Below, in pieces: positions 4,193 to 8,065 of a DNA stretch of 37,323 nt (within the stretch, counting starts at the first letter, position 1; each line of letters opens with the position of its first letter). This DNA comes from Candidatus Alloscybalousia intestinigallinarum. GTDB taxonomy: Bacteria; Bacillota_I; Bacilli_A; RF39; UBA660. The notes beneath the pieces were generated by a model. It had not been told where the DNA came from and searched no databases. It saw nothing but the letters and a program-made list of their open reading frames with translations. The position numbers and the translations under genes were made by a program. The stretch is from contig DVKF01000019.1 of NCBI GenBank assembly GCA_018716115.1, forward strand, positions 1-37,323, in the 5' to 3' direction.

Positions 4193-4218
4193 CACTTGTT
4201 AATGTCAATATAAAAATG

Positions 4219-4280
4219 CCTTAATTTTAAAGTTAAATTTCAGTTTTGGAGTAAAGTGAAATTTAACTTTAAAATTAAGG
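4219..4280. terminator. Perfect 24-bp-stem hairpin, right copy of the 47-bp repeat
   Basis: Arms 4219-4242 and 4257-4280 are perfectly complementary over 24 bases, with a 14-base loop. T-rich runs follow on both strands (TCTCTTTTT on plus, CATTTTTATA on minus), so it could terminate transcription from either side. Bases 4219-4265 are identical to 130-176. The site fits a bidirectional terminator used as an insertion target. Confidence 0.75.
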
Positions 4281-4306
4281 TCTCTTTTTAATCTTGTCAA
4301 AATATG

Positions 4307-4335
4307 TTGCGGATACATATCAAATATGCTATTAT
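4307..4335 (+). promoter_or_regulatory. Promoter of the candidate small RNA
   Basis: -35 TTGCGG (4307-4312), 17-bp spacer, -10 TATTAT (4330-4335). The expected start, about 4342, coincides with the base of the first RNA hairpin. Confidence 0.55.
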
Positions 4336-4341
4336 TATATT

Positions 4342-4443
4342 GTCAGATGACACAAGTGCAGTATAGTAGTATCGTGTTTATCTGATTCAACCGAAGTTTG
4401 GTTGAGTAGTAGATCGTCTGCTAGTATAGGGACGATTTTTTTT
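4342..4443 (+). ncRNA. Candidate structured small RNA of about 100 nt with intrinsic terminator
   Basis: Three hairpins in a row after a good promoter. Hairpin 1: CAGAT (4344-4348) with ATCTG (4380-4384), continued by ACAC/GTGT around a 20-base loop. Hairpin 2: TCAACC (4387-4392) with GGTTGA (4400-4405). Hairpin 3: ATCGTC (4413-4418) with GACGAT (4431-4436), followed by nine T bases. No reading frame covers it. I do not recognise the family; it may be a copy-control or regulatory RNA of the neighbouring element. It points toward, and is convergent with, the gene ending at 4497. Confidence 0.55.
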
Positions 4444-4496
4444 ATGATAAAATGTCTTTATTTATATATAGTTTAGGGTGGCACTGCTAATATATA

Positions 4497-5042
4497 TTAA
4501 TTACTACTTTTTAAATCTTTTTCATACTTATCTTTCCATTGATAGTATGAGATACTTTCTGATATAGCAAAATATCTTAAAGCAATCCACATAAGAGTAT
4601 CATAGAATTGCTCTTCTCTTAAATCAGTTGAAAAGCAATACTTTTTTAATATATCAACATCTATTGGCAATTCTAATTTTCTATCGTGATGTCCTATAAC
4701 TTTAAATAAGATGTCATTTGCTACATTATCTCCCTCTTCAACAACTGCATCAAAACCATCTCTTTTACTTGAATAATAATCTGTAAGTTCATCAACATTT
4801 CTTGAAACTTTACTATATATATCCATAGTTAAAGATTTTTTTAACTTTTCCAGTTGTTTATTGATAATCAAACTTAAAACTTTGTCTTTCTTATCATTTG
4901 GAAGGCTGTCAACTACATCAACTAGATTTTTTAAATCTAAATCTAGCACCTCTTGAATCTTAACTAAATCATTTTCCATTGTTTTAGAAATTGATTCTGC
5001 CAATTCTTCTTCTTTTAATTCTTCATTAATATTTTTTTTCAT
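4497..5042 (-). CDS. Hypothetical protein of the small mobile element
   Basis: Product of 181 residues, not recognised. It is acidic and charged with a predicted helical N-terminal half (residues 1-75, many Glu/Lys/Leu) and a more globular C-terminal part ending YYQWKDKYEKDL. No signal peptide or membrane segment. SD GGAG is well placed before ATG. It is transcribed away from the double-HTH regulator gene, with a palindrome between them, so it may be under that regulator's control. I assign no function. Confidence 0.6.
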   Translation of the reverse strand: MKKNINEELKEEELAESISKTMENDLVKIQEVLDLDLKNLVDVVDSLPNDKKDKVLSLIINKQLEKLKKSLTMDIYSKVSRNVDELTDYYSSKRDGFDAVVEEGDNVANDILFKVIGHHDRKLELPIDVDILKKYCFSTDLREEQFYDTLMWIALRYFAISESISYYQWKDKYEKDLKSSN

Positions 5043-5123
5043 AAATTTAGCTCCTTCGTTATATACCCTAAACTACAATCATAATTATATCACGTTTTTA
5101 TAAAATGACCCAGAGTTTTGCTA

Positions 5124-5151: not shown

Positions 5152-5168
5152 ATTGGGTGATTTTTAGA

Positions 5169-5594
5169 ATGATGAATAATAATCTCAAATTTTGTAGAGA
5201 AGAACTTGAAATGACACAAAAGGAACTAGGTAATGTATTTGGTGTTTCTTTTAAAACAGTTGCTGGATGGGAAAATAGTCATGATACCATGCCTTTAACT
5301 AAATTAGTAAAATTTTGTAATTTATATAAGTTTTCAATAGATTATGTAACTGGATTATCAAAAGTTAATAATTATGTAGAACTAGATAAATTAGACCGAG
5401 TAAAAATTGGTAACAAACTAAAAAGAATTAGACAAAAACTTGGACTAACACAAGAAACTATTGCTTCAGAATGTATGATTTCTCAAGCGACTTATAGTGG
5501 CTATGAAAATGGAAAATATTTAATAACTTCACTATGTCTATATACAATTTGTTATAGCCACAAAATATCAATGAATGACATATTAAAAAAATAG
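5169..5594 (+). CDS. Double helix-turn-helix (XRE/Cro-CI type) regulator
   Basis: About 141 residues with two XRE-type DNA-binding domains in tandem: residues 5-60 (MTQKELGNVFGVSFKTVAGWEN) and residues 78-138 (LTQETIASECMISQATYSGYEN). Two HTH_3 units in one chain are less common than one; such proteins are often repressors of integrative elements. I chose ATG at 5169 because the upstream GTG at 5157 is part of the Shine-Dalgarno GGGTG. It ends one base before the convergent replication-like gene. Likely controls the element and itself through the palindrome upstream. Confidence 0.82.
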   Translation: MMNNNLKFCREELEMTQKELGNVFGVSFKTVAGWENSHDTMPLTKLVKFCNLYKFSIDYVTGLSKVNNYVELDKLDRVKIGNKLKRIRQKLGLTQETIASECMISQATYSGYENGKYLITSLCLYTICYSHKISMNDILKK

Positions 5595-5595
5595 T

Positions 5596-6372
5596 TTATC
5601 TATCAATATCATAGAAACTATCAAATAAGTCATCTTCTCCCCATAGATCTTCTATGTTCTGATTTAATTTGTTTATATTACTAATAATAGAGTTTTTAAA
5701 ATAACCAAATTTATTTTTAATTATATTTCCATCTTCATCTCTAAAACCTCTTTTAACAACTCTAGGAACAATATAATGGACAATTTGTATCAAATCCTTA
5801 TATGAATTATTTTCTTCTAATAACTTGTTAAACAAATCATCATAGTAAAATATTTGTATATCATTTTCGTTTATATATCCACTATCTATTAATTCTAATG
5901 TTAGTCTATTATGTTCTTCAGCAACAAAAAAAGATGATAATTTCGTTTTATCATCTTTATCTATTTGTTTTTTAGTATTTATTATATTAGTATTTATTTG
6001 TGTAGGCTCTTCCACATCTGGAATATCCAGGTGTGGATTTTCCGTATCTGGATATTCTTTATCATTTTCTAGTTCAACAAAGTGTGGTATTTCATAAATT
6101 AAGTAATTATATTCAAAATAACCTTTTTCTCCTCTAACTTTTTCTATTTCTAAATAATGATACTCTTGCAATTCCTTTAATATGGATCTAATTCCATCTC
6201 TACCCTCTTTACTTATTGAACAAAGACCTGCCAAAGAATAATCCCAATCTTCTGGCAAACTTAACATAAACGATAATAACCCTTTAGCTTTATACGATAA
6301 ATTTTTATCTCTTAAATGATAATTAGACATAACAGTATAGTTATTATTCTTTTCTATTTTAAAAACTGACAT
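5596..6372 (-). CDS. Replication-organiser-like winged-helix protein of a mobile element
   Basis: About 258 residues. The N-terminal segment (FKIEKNNNYTVMSNYHLRD, KAKGLLSFMLSLPEDWDYS) is the conserved start of helix-turn-helix proteins found next to integrases and recombinases in Clostridia/Bacilli elements and phages, with winged-helix residues to about 95. A linker rich in Asp/Glu/Thr (110-150) leads to a C-terminal domain with FGYFKNSIISNINKLNQ, reminiscent of DnaD/replisome-organiser tails. Start set at ATG 6372 because GGAGGTG just before it is inside the longer frame. It lies 25 bases after the 66-aa gene, same operon. Role in element replication is inferred from family and context. Confidence 0.7.
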   Translation of the reverse strand: MSVFKIEKNNNYTVMSNYHLRDKNLSYKAKGLLSFMLSLPEDWDYSLAGLCSISKEGRDGIRSILKELQEYHYLEIEKVRGEKGYFEYNYLIYEIPHFVELENDKEYPDTENPHLDIPDVEEPTQINTNIINTKKQIDKDDKTKLSSFFVAEEHNRLTLELIDSGYINENDIQIFYYDDLFNKLLEENNSYKDLIQIVHYIVPRVVKRGFRDEDGNIIKNKFGYFKNSIISNINKLNQNIEDLWGEDDLFDSFYDIDR

Positions 6373-6397
6373 TTTTACACCTCCAAACAAAAAACAA

Positions 6398-6601: not shown

Positions 6602-8065
6602 CTACCTCTTAAATTCTACACTTTTAATAATTATCTTATCAGTTAATTTATCAACTTTAATAACCTCCACAAAACGTTCTAAAAACTGTTGTTTTTCCTT
6701 ATTTGTTAAATATCCCCAATTTAATTTTATATTAGTTACAATATCTTTAATATCATCATAAGAATACGAATCATTGCTATCCTCAATTATTTCATCTAGT
6801 TCTAAGATTTTTGACTGTTGTATATTCTGTTGTTTTTGTATTTCCTCAGTAATTTCATGATATTCATTTACATCTATCAAATCGTTAATAAACTGACTCC
6901 TAATAATTTTTTTCTTGTTTTCTAGTTTTTCAATTTTTTTATTAATTTCTTGTTTCTTTTTTTCAGAATTAATTATTTTTTTTCTTTTCTCCATAATGCT
7001 CTTATCAGGAACCATATTCTCTAAAGTATCTAAATATTCTAAAAATGCTTTTTCCATTGTCTTATGCGAAAAGCCTCCACATTTACAAAAACCTCTACTA
7101 GAATTATTACACCTATACGTAATATATAATTTGCCACTCTGAGTTTGTTGCCTAGCAGAAATATTACCTCCACAATTTGCACATTTTATAATATGAAAAT
7201 AATATGAATTTTCACTTGGATAACGTCTGACACAATATTGCTTTCTTGTTGCAATTATATTATTTGCTAATTTCCATTTTTCTTCATCAATTATTGGTTC
7301 TATGTCGTTACCATCAACAGTAAAAGATCTATCTTTATTTTTCTCTTGCACTCCATATCTTACTTTACCAACATACAATGGGTTATTAATTATTGATTTT
7401 ATTGTAGATGAAGCCCAATGTCCACCTCTCTTTGTAGGAACGTTTTCTTCATTAAATAAATGGGCAATTTTAAAATAAGACTTACCATCTATATATAAAT
7501 CGAAAATTCTATTAACTAAATCTTTTTCTTCTTCATTTACAATTATTTTTTTCTCTCCTACAATATAATCGTACCCATAAACACCATTAGTATTAGTATA
7601 ATTACCTTCTCTAGTTTTTTGTTCATAACCAAAAGATACTCTTTCAGCAAGATTTTCCCTTTCAAACTCTGCAAAAATACCAATAATTTTTACAAACATT
7701 CTACCCACAGCATTAGATGTGTCAATTTTTTCGGTTTGAGAATTAAAAGTGCAACTGTGTTTTTCAAACAACTCTATTAAATAAATTAAATCTCTCACGC
7801 TTCGTGTTAATCTATCTAGTTTATATATTAATATATTATTTATTTTCCCATCTTCCACATCTTTAAGCAATCTAGTTATTTCAGGTCTATCTTCTAAATT
7901 TTTACCACTTATTCCATCATCAACATAGTAATCAAAAATATCCCAATCGTTTGCCTCAGCATACTTGGTTAATTTTTCTCTTTGTGCATGAATTGAGAAA
8001 CCATCTTTTGCTTGATCCTCTGTTGAAACACGAATATAAATTCCTGTAACTATTTTTTCTTCCAC
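6602..8065 (-). CDS. Large serine recombinase (site-specific integrase)
   Basis: Product of 487 residues, normal size for the TndX/phiC31-type family. The N-terminal resolvase domain starts GIYIRVSTEDQ, with the nucleophile Ser14, and has conserved YKLDRLTRS and FAEFERENLAER motifs. The Recombinase domain follows (GVYGYDY...VPTKRGGHWASSTIKSIINNPLYVG), then a zinc ribbon with CANCGG ... C...CKCGG, then a coiled coil (about 370-420). It catalyses integration and excision through a covalent serine-DNA link. Start is GTG with SD GAGGAG eight bases upstream. Attachment sites could not be defined. Confidence 0.95.
   Translation of the reverse strand: MEEKIVTGIYIRVSTEDQAKDGFSIHAQREKLTKYAEANDWDIFDYYVDDGISGKNLEDRPEITRLLKDVEDGKINNILIYKLDRLTRSVRDLIYLIELFEKHSCTFNSQTEKIDTSNAVGRMFVKIIGIFAEFERENLAERVSFGYEQKTREGNYTNTNGVYGYDYIVGEKKIIVNEEEKDLVNRIFDLYIDGKSYFKIAHLFNEENVPTKRGGHWASSTIKSIINNPLYVGKVRYGVQEKNKDRSFTVDGNDIEPIIDEEKWKLANNIIATRKQYCVRRYPSENSYYFHIIKCANCGGNISARQQTQSGKLYITYRCNNSSRGFCKCGGFSHKTMEKAFLEYLDTLENMVPDKSIMEKRKKIINSEKKKQEINKKIEKLENKKKIIRSQFINDLIDVNEYHEITEEIQKQQNIQQSKILELDEIIEDSNDSYSYDDIKDIVTNIKLNWGYLTNKEKQQFLERFVEVIKVDKLTDKIIIKSVEFKR

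Follow-up and report, generated by a model that had tools for sequence, protein, structure and literature searches.

An Apparently Unrecognised Family of AGUA-Repeat Small RNAs on Mobile Elements of Gut Bacilli

Introduction

CsrB and RsmZ are stand-alone sponge small RNAs (sRNAs) that have several hairpins and a repeated (A)GGA motif and titrate CsrA or RsmA, and in the CsrA/CsrB system the sponge is accompanied by autoregulation of the binder. In type III toxin-antitoxin systems, a tandem-repeat RNA is located directly upstream of the toxin gene with a terminator between the two. Another RNA-binding surface with a repetitive target is the distal face of Hfq, for which the binding consensus is (ARN)n. 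Pairing between the two untranslated regions of one mRNA was described for icaR of Staphylococcus aureus, in which the 5' and 3' UTRs reportedly pair, involving the Shine-Dalgarno (SD) region and a UCCCC motif (PMC3868564). Two further reported systems belong to mobile elements. The sgm-sRNA of Salmonella Genomic Island 1, an integrative mobilizable element, is encoded near oriT, arises by processing at the 3' end of a primary RNA and is required for transfer (PMC9299015), and PrgU of pCF10 has as its target an intergenic RNA sequence within the prgQ transcript (PMC8265641).

The sRNA considered here lies in a stretch of 37,323 bases (hereafter the window), which is one of the 65 contigs of a 1.49-Mb genome. 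It had been predicted as an unrecognised three-hairpin small RNA, and it looks real: it represents an unrecognised RNA family on mobile elements of gut Bacilli. Like sgm-sRNA, it is element-encoded; it differs in origin, and AGUA repeats such as those described below are not mentioned in the abstract on sgm-sRNA (PMC9299015). The family is defined and testable, has a repeated motif and occurs in genomes in which Hfq was not detected, and it is accompanied by a neighbouring protein family, P181, whose mRNA has the same AGUA motif and can pair end to end.

The Small RNA in the Window

Within about 100 bases without an ORF, the original prediction placed a good promoter, a start at the foot of hairpin 1 and a strong terminator, and all of these are present at 4307-4443 (Table 1). 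The promoter spacer is 17 nt long, and the start, G4342, is located 6 nt past the -10 box at the foot of hairpin 1. When the hairpins are read from the sequence, hairpins 1 and 2 have about the bounds given in Table 1, and hairpin 3 extends from about 4411 to 4438, with the U8 tract at 4436-4443.

Table 1. Features of the sRNA, the P181 gene and the adjoining element in the window.
Feature	Position	Strand	Basis
sRNA promoter: -35 TTGCGG (4307-4312), extended -10 (TGC)TATTAT (4330-4335)	4307..4335	+	sequence; spacing kept in 20 of 21 family members
Small RNA, ~102 nt, six AGUA motifs	4342..4443	+	fold z -4.1; six AGUA vs 1.5 expected
sRNA hairpin 1, closing stem around AGUAUAGUAGUA	4344..4384	+	fold; corresponding closing stems in relatives
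sRNA hairpin 2, UCAACC ... GGUUGA	4385..4407	+	fold
Conserved sRNA linker AGUAGUAGA	4405..4413	+	alignment A1
sRNA hairpin 3 (terminator): stem 4414-4419/4430-4435, fixed loop GCUAGUAUAG (4420-4429), then U8	4414..4443	+	all cells paired; both sides changed in 6 of 8 pairs
P181 end-to-end stem, 3' strand ACCCUAAACUAUA	4467..4479	-	
AGUA cluster at P181 3' end (AGUAGUA ... GCAGUG), degenerate in the window copy, partly inside the last codons	4482..4508	-	
P181 gene, 181 aa, without known family, convergent with the sRNA	4497..5042	-	
P181 end-to-end stem, 5' strand UGUAGUUUAGGGU, at the predicted mRNA start	5065..5077	-	
XRE-type HTH gene, divergent from P181, an arrangement found at most P181 loci	5157..5594	+	
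HTH_36 gene (rep-like) of the element; relatives of this gene adjoin the sRNA in several genomes	5596..6390	-	
Large serine recombinase of the element	6602..8065	-	

The fold of 4342-4443 has an energy of -31.5 kcal/mol, and none of 200 shuffles was equally stable. A longer piece, 4307-4500, folds differently and with lower significance (z -2.5), so the outcome hinges on where the transcript starts. In a simple consensus scan the promoter was not called, its -35 box matching at 3 of 6 positions, and the terminator was likewise missed. Given this miss and the weaker fold of the longer piece, relatives are needed to judge the sRNA. There is no ORF of at least 60 aa within the sRNA, and no tRNA or tmRNA character was found in it. 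Rfam 15 contains no family that matches the sRNA; when the window and 10 related loci were searched at the gathering threshold, the sole match was a tRNA in L168. The Rfam matches at E <= 10 were rejected as chance-like; most of them, including the best, which are miRNA models, fall on a neighbouring palindrome (4216-4285) outside the sRNA. No record of AGUA-repeat RNAs was found in Rfam 15 or in the literature searched, which lay mostly outside subscription journals.

Relatives and Covariation of the Terminator Stem

The family as collected comprises 21 instances of 60-175 nt each, from 15 genomes of one order and one prophage contig; in this set L014 stands for L014 and L015, and the near-identical L033, L034 and L036 were left out. 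When 385 genomes of the order, which all belong to one family, were searched at the DNA level, near-identical copies came to light along with a more distant conserved 3' module, which consists of AGUAGUAG, a stem strand, the loop GCUWGUANAG, the other stem strand and U7-8. Matches were obtained in 71 of the 385 genomes, mostly to AT-rich promoter pieces of 20-35 nt, which were dropped, and those covering the terminator hairpin were kept. Of the 385 genomes, 14 contain an exact match to the module pattern, whose reversed control gave 0 in every genome listed. A covariance model of the module (R1) reported 34 of these genomes, 15 with E < 1e-5, the weaker matches (E >= 1e-5) being treated as chance or ordinary terminators. 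Across the class, the same model reported 4 of 296 genomes, namely three of the same family and one weak match. One more member, L168 (genome G295), shows AGUA motifs and ends in a terminator that lacks the fixed loop.

In viral sequences, a pattern search gave 11 contigs: one convincing (L043), five from freshwater phages that are marginal by the model, and five that look chance-like; a stricter pattern recovered only L043, and a loop-array pattern found no viral contig. BLAST of the sRNA against plasmids and phages returned only chance fragments of 31-38 bases (E 0.5). A GNAGTA-triplet pattern was rejected, since, once three array-rich genomes are set apart, it shows no clear excess over its reversed control.

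The -10 box ends exactly 6 nt before hairpin 1 in 20 of the 21 members, L081 being the exception, a result not fully independent of the start points, which were set by eye at the hairpin foot. Because the relatives keep this promoter spacing, the start site of the sRNA is supported. For the terminator, 11 distinct hairpins of 22 bases were aligned without gaps. All cells of the 8 stem pairs are standard pairs, and six of the pairs have changed on both sides. The stem reaches a covariation score of 0.739, compared with 0.283 for shuffles and no more than 0.20 when the partners are slid, for hairpins that came from BLAST, pattern and model, of which the model required pairing and the pattern did not. 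The loop (GCUWGUANAG) is nearly fixed, its G, C, G, U, A and G being invariant. The compensatory changes that mark a new RNA family were thus found for the third of the three stems in which the original prediction proposed to look for them; for stems 1 and 2 the comparison was purely visual. With promoter, structure and terminator conserved and good covariation evidence in the terminator stem, this is by computation a real RNA family that had gone unrecognised.

Some similar terminators were also encountered. Those in the five freshwater phage contigs (L038, L039, L041, L047 and L048; model E 0.025-0.049) combine GTAGTA with the loop GCTWGTAYAG at the same register, and in three of these contigs AGUA clusters follow a small upstream gene. 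L117 (G295:C28:5688-5724), L118 (G082:C2:23490-23526) and L100 are ordinary-looking terminators with the loop CTAGTACAG and without GTAGTA in front.

Genomic Setting of the Small RNAs

The sRNA was placed from the outset between an IS30-type cassette and a recombinase element, which is correct for the window. There, and in the elements of several genomes, it is located at the edge of an XRE/HTH_36/serine-recombinase core beside variable cargo, and close relatives of the window element are present on contigs of uncultured Bacilli bacterium. It is not antisense to the rep-like or the recombinase gene. Other members were found beside genes that we take, from reading the sequences, to be the conjugation genes of integrative and conjugative elements (ICEs; L079, L084 and L085), in a prophage next to a presumably amidase-like gene (L043), and between chromosomal genes that we assume to resemble prs and murI (L092).

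The diversity of these settings bears on two alternatives. The repeats might act as DNA and not as RNA, being protein-binding sites (iterons, an origin or oriT) beside a rep-like gene, as the HTH_36 and XRE genes adjoining in several loci and the repeat period of about 8 nt in the ICE versions would suggest. This is improbable in view of the promoter at fixed spacing to hairpin 1, the U-tract terminator with its compensated stem and the members that lie away from rep-like genes, in the ICE conjugation regions, the prs-like/murI-like interval and the prophage. The sRNA might also be a cis-acting leader or attenuator for the next gene, and in L082, L090 and L092 a gene does start 50-73 nt downstream on the same strand. 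However, in the window and in elements where an HTH_36 gene adjoins, the sRNA is followed by a gene that converges on it, and no alternative antiterminator was seen; a leader is very improbable. More generally, a cis role for one gene is unlikely because the downstream genes differ between loci.

The Repeated AGUA Motif

The number of AGUA motifs is above the dinucleotide-shuffle expectation in all 21 sRNAs, for example 16 vs 7.8 in L079 and 15 vs 6.7 in L007, with a weak excess in L018 (3 vs 2.1); the ICE versions contain 14-16 copies. The motif is also exposed. Over the 21 sRNAs, the mean unpaired probability is 0.58 for AGUA bases vs 0.31 elsewhere, except that in L014 AGUA is less unpaired than the remainder of the RNA. 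The members have a common plan, in which a closing stem around AGUA motifs is followed by the linker AGUAGUA and by a terminator hairpin with AGUA in its loop. GYAGUA contexts account for 83 of the 154 AGUA in the sRNAs and for 40 of the 70 in the 3' UTRs of P181 genes, compared with about 11% in the background.

AGU repeats fit the consensus of the Hfq distal face, and the sRNAs could accordingly be Hfq-dependent RNAs with ARN-type binding repeats. That reading is already disfavoured and its probability is minimal, as Hfq (PF17209) was detected in 0 of the 15 carrier genomes, whereas 5 of 14 control genomes were positive.

The P181 Gene and Its AGUA-Bearing 3' End

Homologues of P181 were found at E <= 0.001 in 27 of the 385 genomes of the order, the last few being doubtful or chance matches, and at the loci examined they are usually divergent to an XRE gene. 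Known-family searches gave no convincing match, and no toxin or defence family repeated across members. Only marginal profile matches to the PDB were obtained, to SSO1986 and PUF proteins (E 0.006-0.033), and the structure prediction is too poor for use (mean pLDDT 57). The eight P181 proteins examined are acidic (pI 4.4-5.1). P181 was not found in plasmids, nor were relatives found in viral contigs with three single queries. At L181, L187 and L189, the neighbours of P181 include what we presume, from the sequence, to be the reverse-transcriptase and variable-repeat genes of a diversity-generating retroelement.

Directly past the stop codon, most P181 homologues have the arrangement AGUAGUA...AGUAGUA...AGCAGUACC. 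The corresponding pattern, GTAGTAN{0,12}TTAGCAGTACC, gave 13 rows (11 distinct places) in 32 genomes chosen for carrying P181 or the sRNA, and 0 in the reversed control; all 11 places are within 60 nt of a P181 match. At least three AGUA in the 70 nt after the stop codon were counted for 14 of 24 P181 rows, which include near-duplicates, vs 3 of 264 other ORF ends. A scan of 459.8 kb of fetched loci for dense AGUA clusters picked up not only the sRNAs and the P181-homologue 3' ends but also clusters elsewhere. Several of the latter look coding, and three are at a phage gene end. A viral search with the 3'-UTR pattern was set aside, as the matches were chance-like among those listed, and the P181 profile had no match in 80 of these loci.

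P181 is carried by sRNA genomes above expectation (6 of 15 vs 22 of 385 overall), and unlinked P181 was found in 3 of 12 (p 0.017), an excess that is suggestive only. A P181 profile search of 14 sRNA genomes found it absent from 8 and gave a chance-level match only in a ninth (G339), and P181 was not found in the prophage contig that carries the sRNA. When P181 loci were searched with the sRNA model, only the window had the sRNA beside P181; the near-identical L003, L032 and L033, which were outside this search, have the same arrangement.

Two explanations centred on P181 have to be weighed here. In the first, the sRNA is the RNA partner or antidote of P181, taken as a toxin or exclusion protein with XRE, in the manner of a type III toxin-antitoxin system, and the AGUA repeats bind P181 and thereby silence it both in cis, from its own 3' UTR, and in trans, from the sRNA. 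The link between P181 and AGUA RNA, the divergent XRE gene at most loci examined and the presence of sRNAs on other mobile elements that could need protection would all fit. Nevertheless, such an antidote is unlikely, given the absence of a recurrent toxin or defence match, the many sRNA carriers from which P181 is missing and the lack of a linked separate sRNA at most P181 loci. Type III membership itself was rejected, the sRNA being convergent with P181 and P181 matching no toxin family. In the second, the sRNA works by base pairing, either with its AGUAGUA segments as seeds or, in the window, as an antisense RNA to the 3' extension of P181. The linker AGUAGUAGA is indeed unpaired and conserved, and the P181 gene toward which the sRNA converges has no obvious terminator of its own there. 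Yet among the searched P181 loci the two adjoin only in the window (and alike in L003, L032 and L033), and up to 16 identical repeated motifs fit a protein ligand better than a seed, which leaves base pairing a rather improbable mode of action.

Predicted End-to-End Pairing of the P181 mRNA

Next to the AGUA cluster is a stretch complementary to the start of the P181 mRNA's own leader, and the sequences involved differ among relatives. The leader and 3'-UTR complements are UGUAGUUUAGGGU with ACCCUAAACUAUA in the window, AAUAGGUAAGUUUAGA with UCUAAACUUACCUAUU in L180, AAAAAGGUAGAU with AUCUACCUUUUU in L187, and AGAAAGUGAGUUUUU with AAAAACUCACUUUCU in L193. The pairing was tested on 17 of 33 P181 loci, near-duplicate, truncated, broken and doubtful rows being left out. 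The pairing score was 25.5 for matched leader-UTR combinations vs 18.2 for mismatched ones, a difference equalled in 0 of 20000 permutations, and by duplex energy the count was 2 of 20000. Within the two P181 sequence groups, matched pairing is weakly better (466 and 2696 of 20000 permutations), so that it is chiefly the difference between the two stem types that supports the pairing. Little end-to-end pairing is seen in L181, L194 and L196. When 13 predicted P181 mRNAs were trimmed to the stem strands, which favours the stem, the mean stem probability was 0.90-0.97.

As in the icaR mRNA, UTRs of one mRNA pair with each other, and the end pairing is compensated across P181 relatives, weakly so within the groups. 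In contrast to icaR (PMC3868564), the P181 stem lies upstream of the SD region, close to the extreme 5' end, and is joined to the AGUA cluster. In the P181 leaders examined the 5' stem strand precedes the GGAG site, and the SD region is not covered by the pairing.

Proposed Function of the Small RNAs

The sRNAs have in common with CsrB and RsmZ that they are stand-alone, with several hairpins, a short motif repeated in loops and linkers and a strong terminator, and that they presumably titrate an RNA-binding protein which also binds mRNAs. The CsrB/RsmZ way of working, with a repeated motif exposed in hairpins, agrees with the enrichment and exposure of AGUA. Membership in that family was rejected, as the repeated motif is AGUA/GYAGUA and not (A)GGA. 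The sRNAs further differ in being on mobile elements and in having a binding protein that is only putative, and the second place of the motif is the 3' UTR here and the ribosome-binding site in the case of CsrB/RsmZ. By analogy, we think that the sRNA works like CsrB/RsmZ, though it is not a member.

Since the motif is repeated and exposed in an RNA that has its own promoter and terminator, and is found again at the ends of P181 mRNAs, the sRNA is best read as a stand-alone regulatory RNA of a new family, most likely a decoy for a putative AGUA-binding factor that it would titrate and that would act on P181 mRNA too. We would give this tentative reading close to an even chance. Against it stand the degenerate AGUA cluster of the window's own P181 copy, the carriers in which P181 was not found, the weak pairing excess within the P181 groups, and L014 and L018, which scarcely agree with an exposed, enriched motif. 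The sRNA would be transcribed from its own promoter up to its own terminator, and its hairpin loops and linkers would display the AGUA motifs, most of them GUAGUA or GCAGUA, so that several sites per molecule could bind and titrate the factor. The P181 mRNA, with its 3'-terminal AGUA cluster beside the end-joining stem, would be bound by this factor as well, and P181 output would thereby be controlled; more sRNA would release this control. The features point to such a motif-presenting decoy linked to P181, rather than to the control of replication or integration of the element that had been suggested originally and is not favoured here. If the decoy reading is true, this would be a Csr-like titration system with a different motif on mobile elements, and it would indicate an undiscovered RNA-binding protein.

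P181 itself could be the AGUA binder and would be a natural candidate, since CsrA is likewise autoregulated alongside its sponge CsrB; this is somewhat doubtful, however, and a host protein is as likely. P181 is disfavoured because it is acidic, which is unusual for RNA-binding proteins, and is absent from most sRNA carriers. PrgU offers a parallel as an element-encoded protein that acts on element RNA to adjust output; it differs in that no decoy RNA is mentioned in the abstract on it (PMC8265641). The matches of P181 to solved structures are marginal at best. A wider and fairly unlikely possibility is that mobile elements use AGUA RNAs in conflicts with one another. In this view, P181/XRE modules would guard an element or the cell through an AGUA-controlled protein with an end-joined mRNA, and other ICEs, IMEs and a prophage would carry AGUA decoys that disarm it in trans.

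Additional Features of the Elements

Several observations were made on the surroundings of the sRNAs. In L094, L082 and L096, the cargo by the sRNA includes what we take from the sequences to be large helicase/methylase-like, macro-domain and ADP-ribosylglycohydrolase-like genes, which are possibly defence systems. The rep-gene elements of L033, L086, L088, L093 and L094 end by a gene that we assume to be D-Ala-D-Ala carboxypeptidase-like, a possible integration site; in the window, a NERD-domain gene stands in its place. A TAGTAAnATTnCGA-like sequence is located ~45-61 nt downstream of sRNAs (L007, L008 and L009) and of P181 3' ends at six loci (L035, L169, L183, L184, L186 and L201), and it is perhaps a recombination site or module border. 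The window also contains 62-nt direct copies at 124-185 and 4213-4274 (90% alike), the second of which completes a palindrome. These copies flank IS30-like transposase, radical SAM, methyltransferase and RlmA-like genes. The resulting cassette resembles a composite transposon, and its end lies just upstream of where the sRNA promoter begins.
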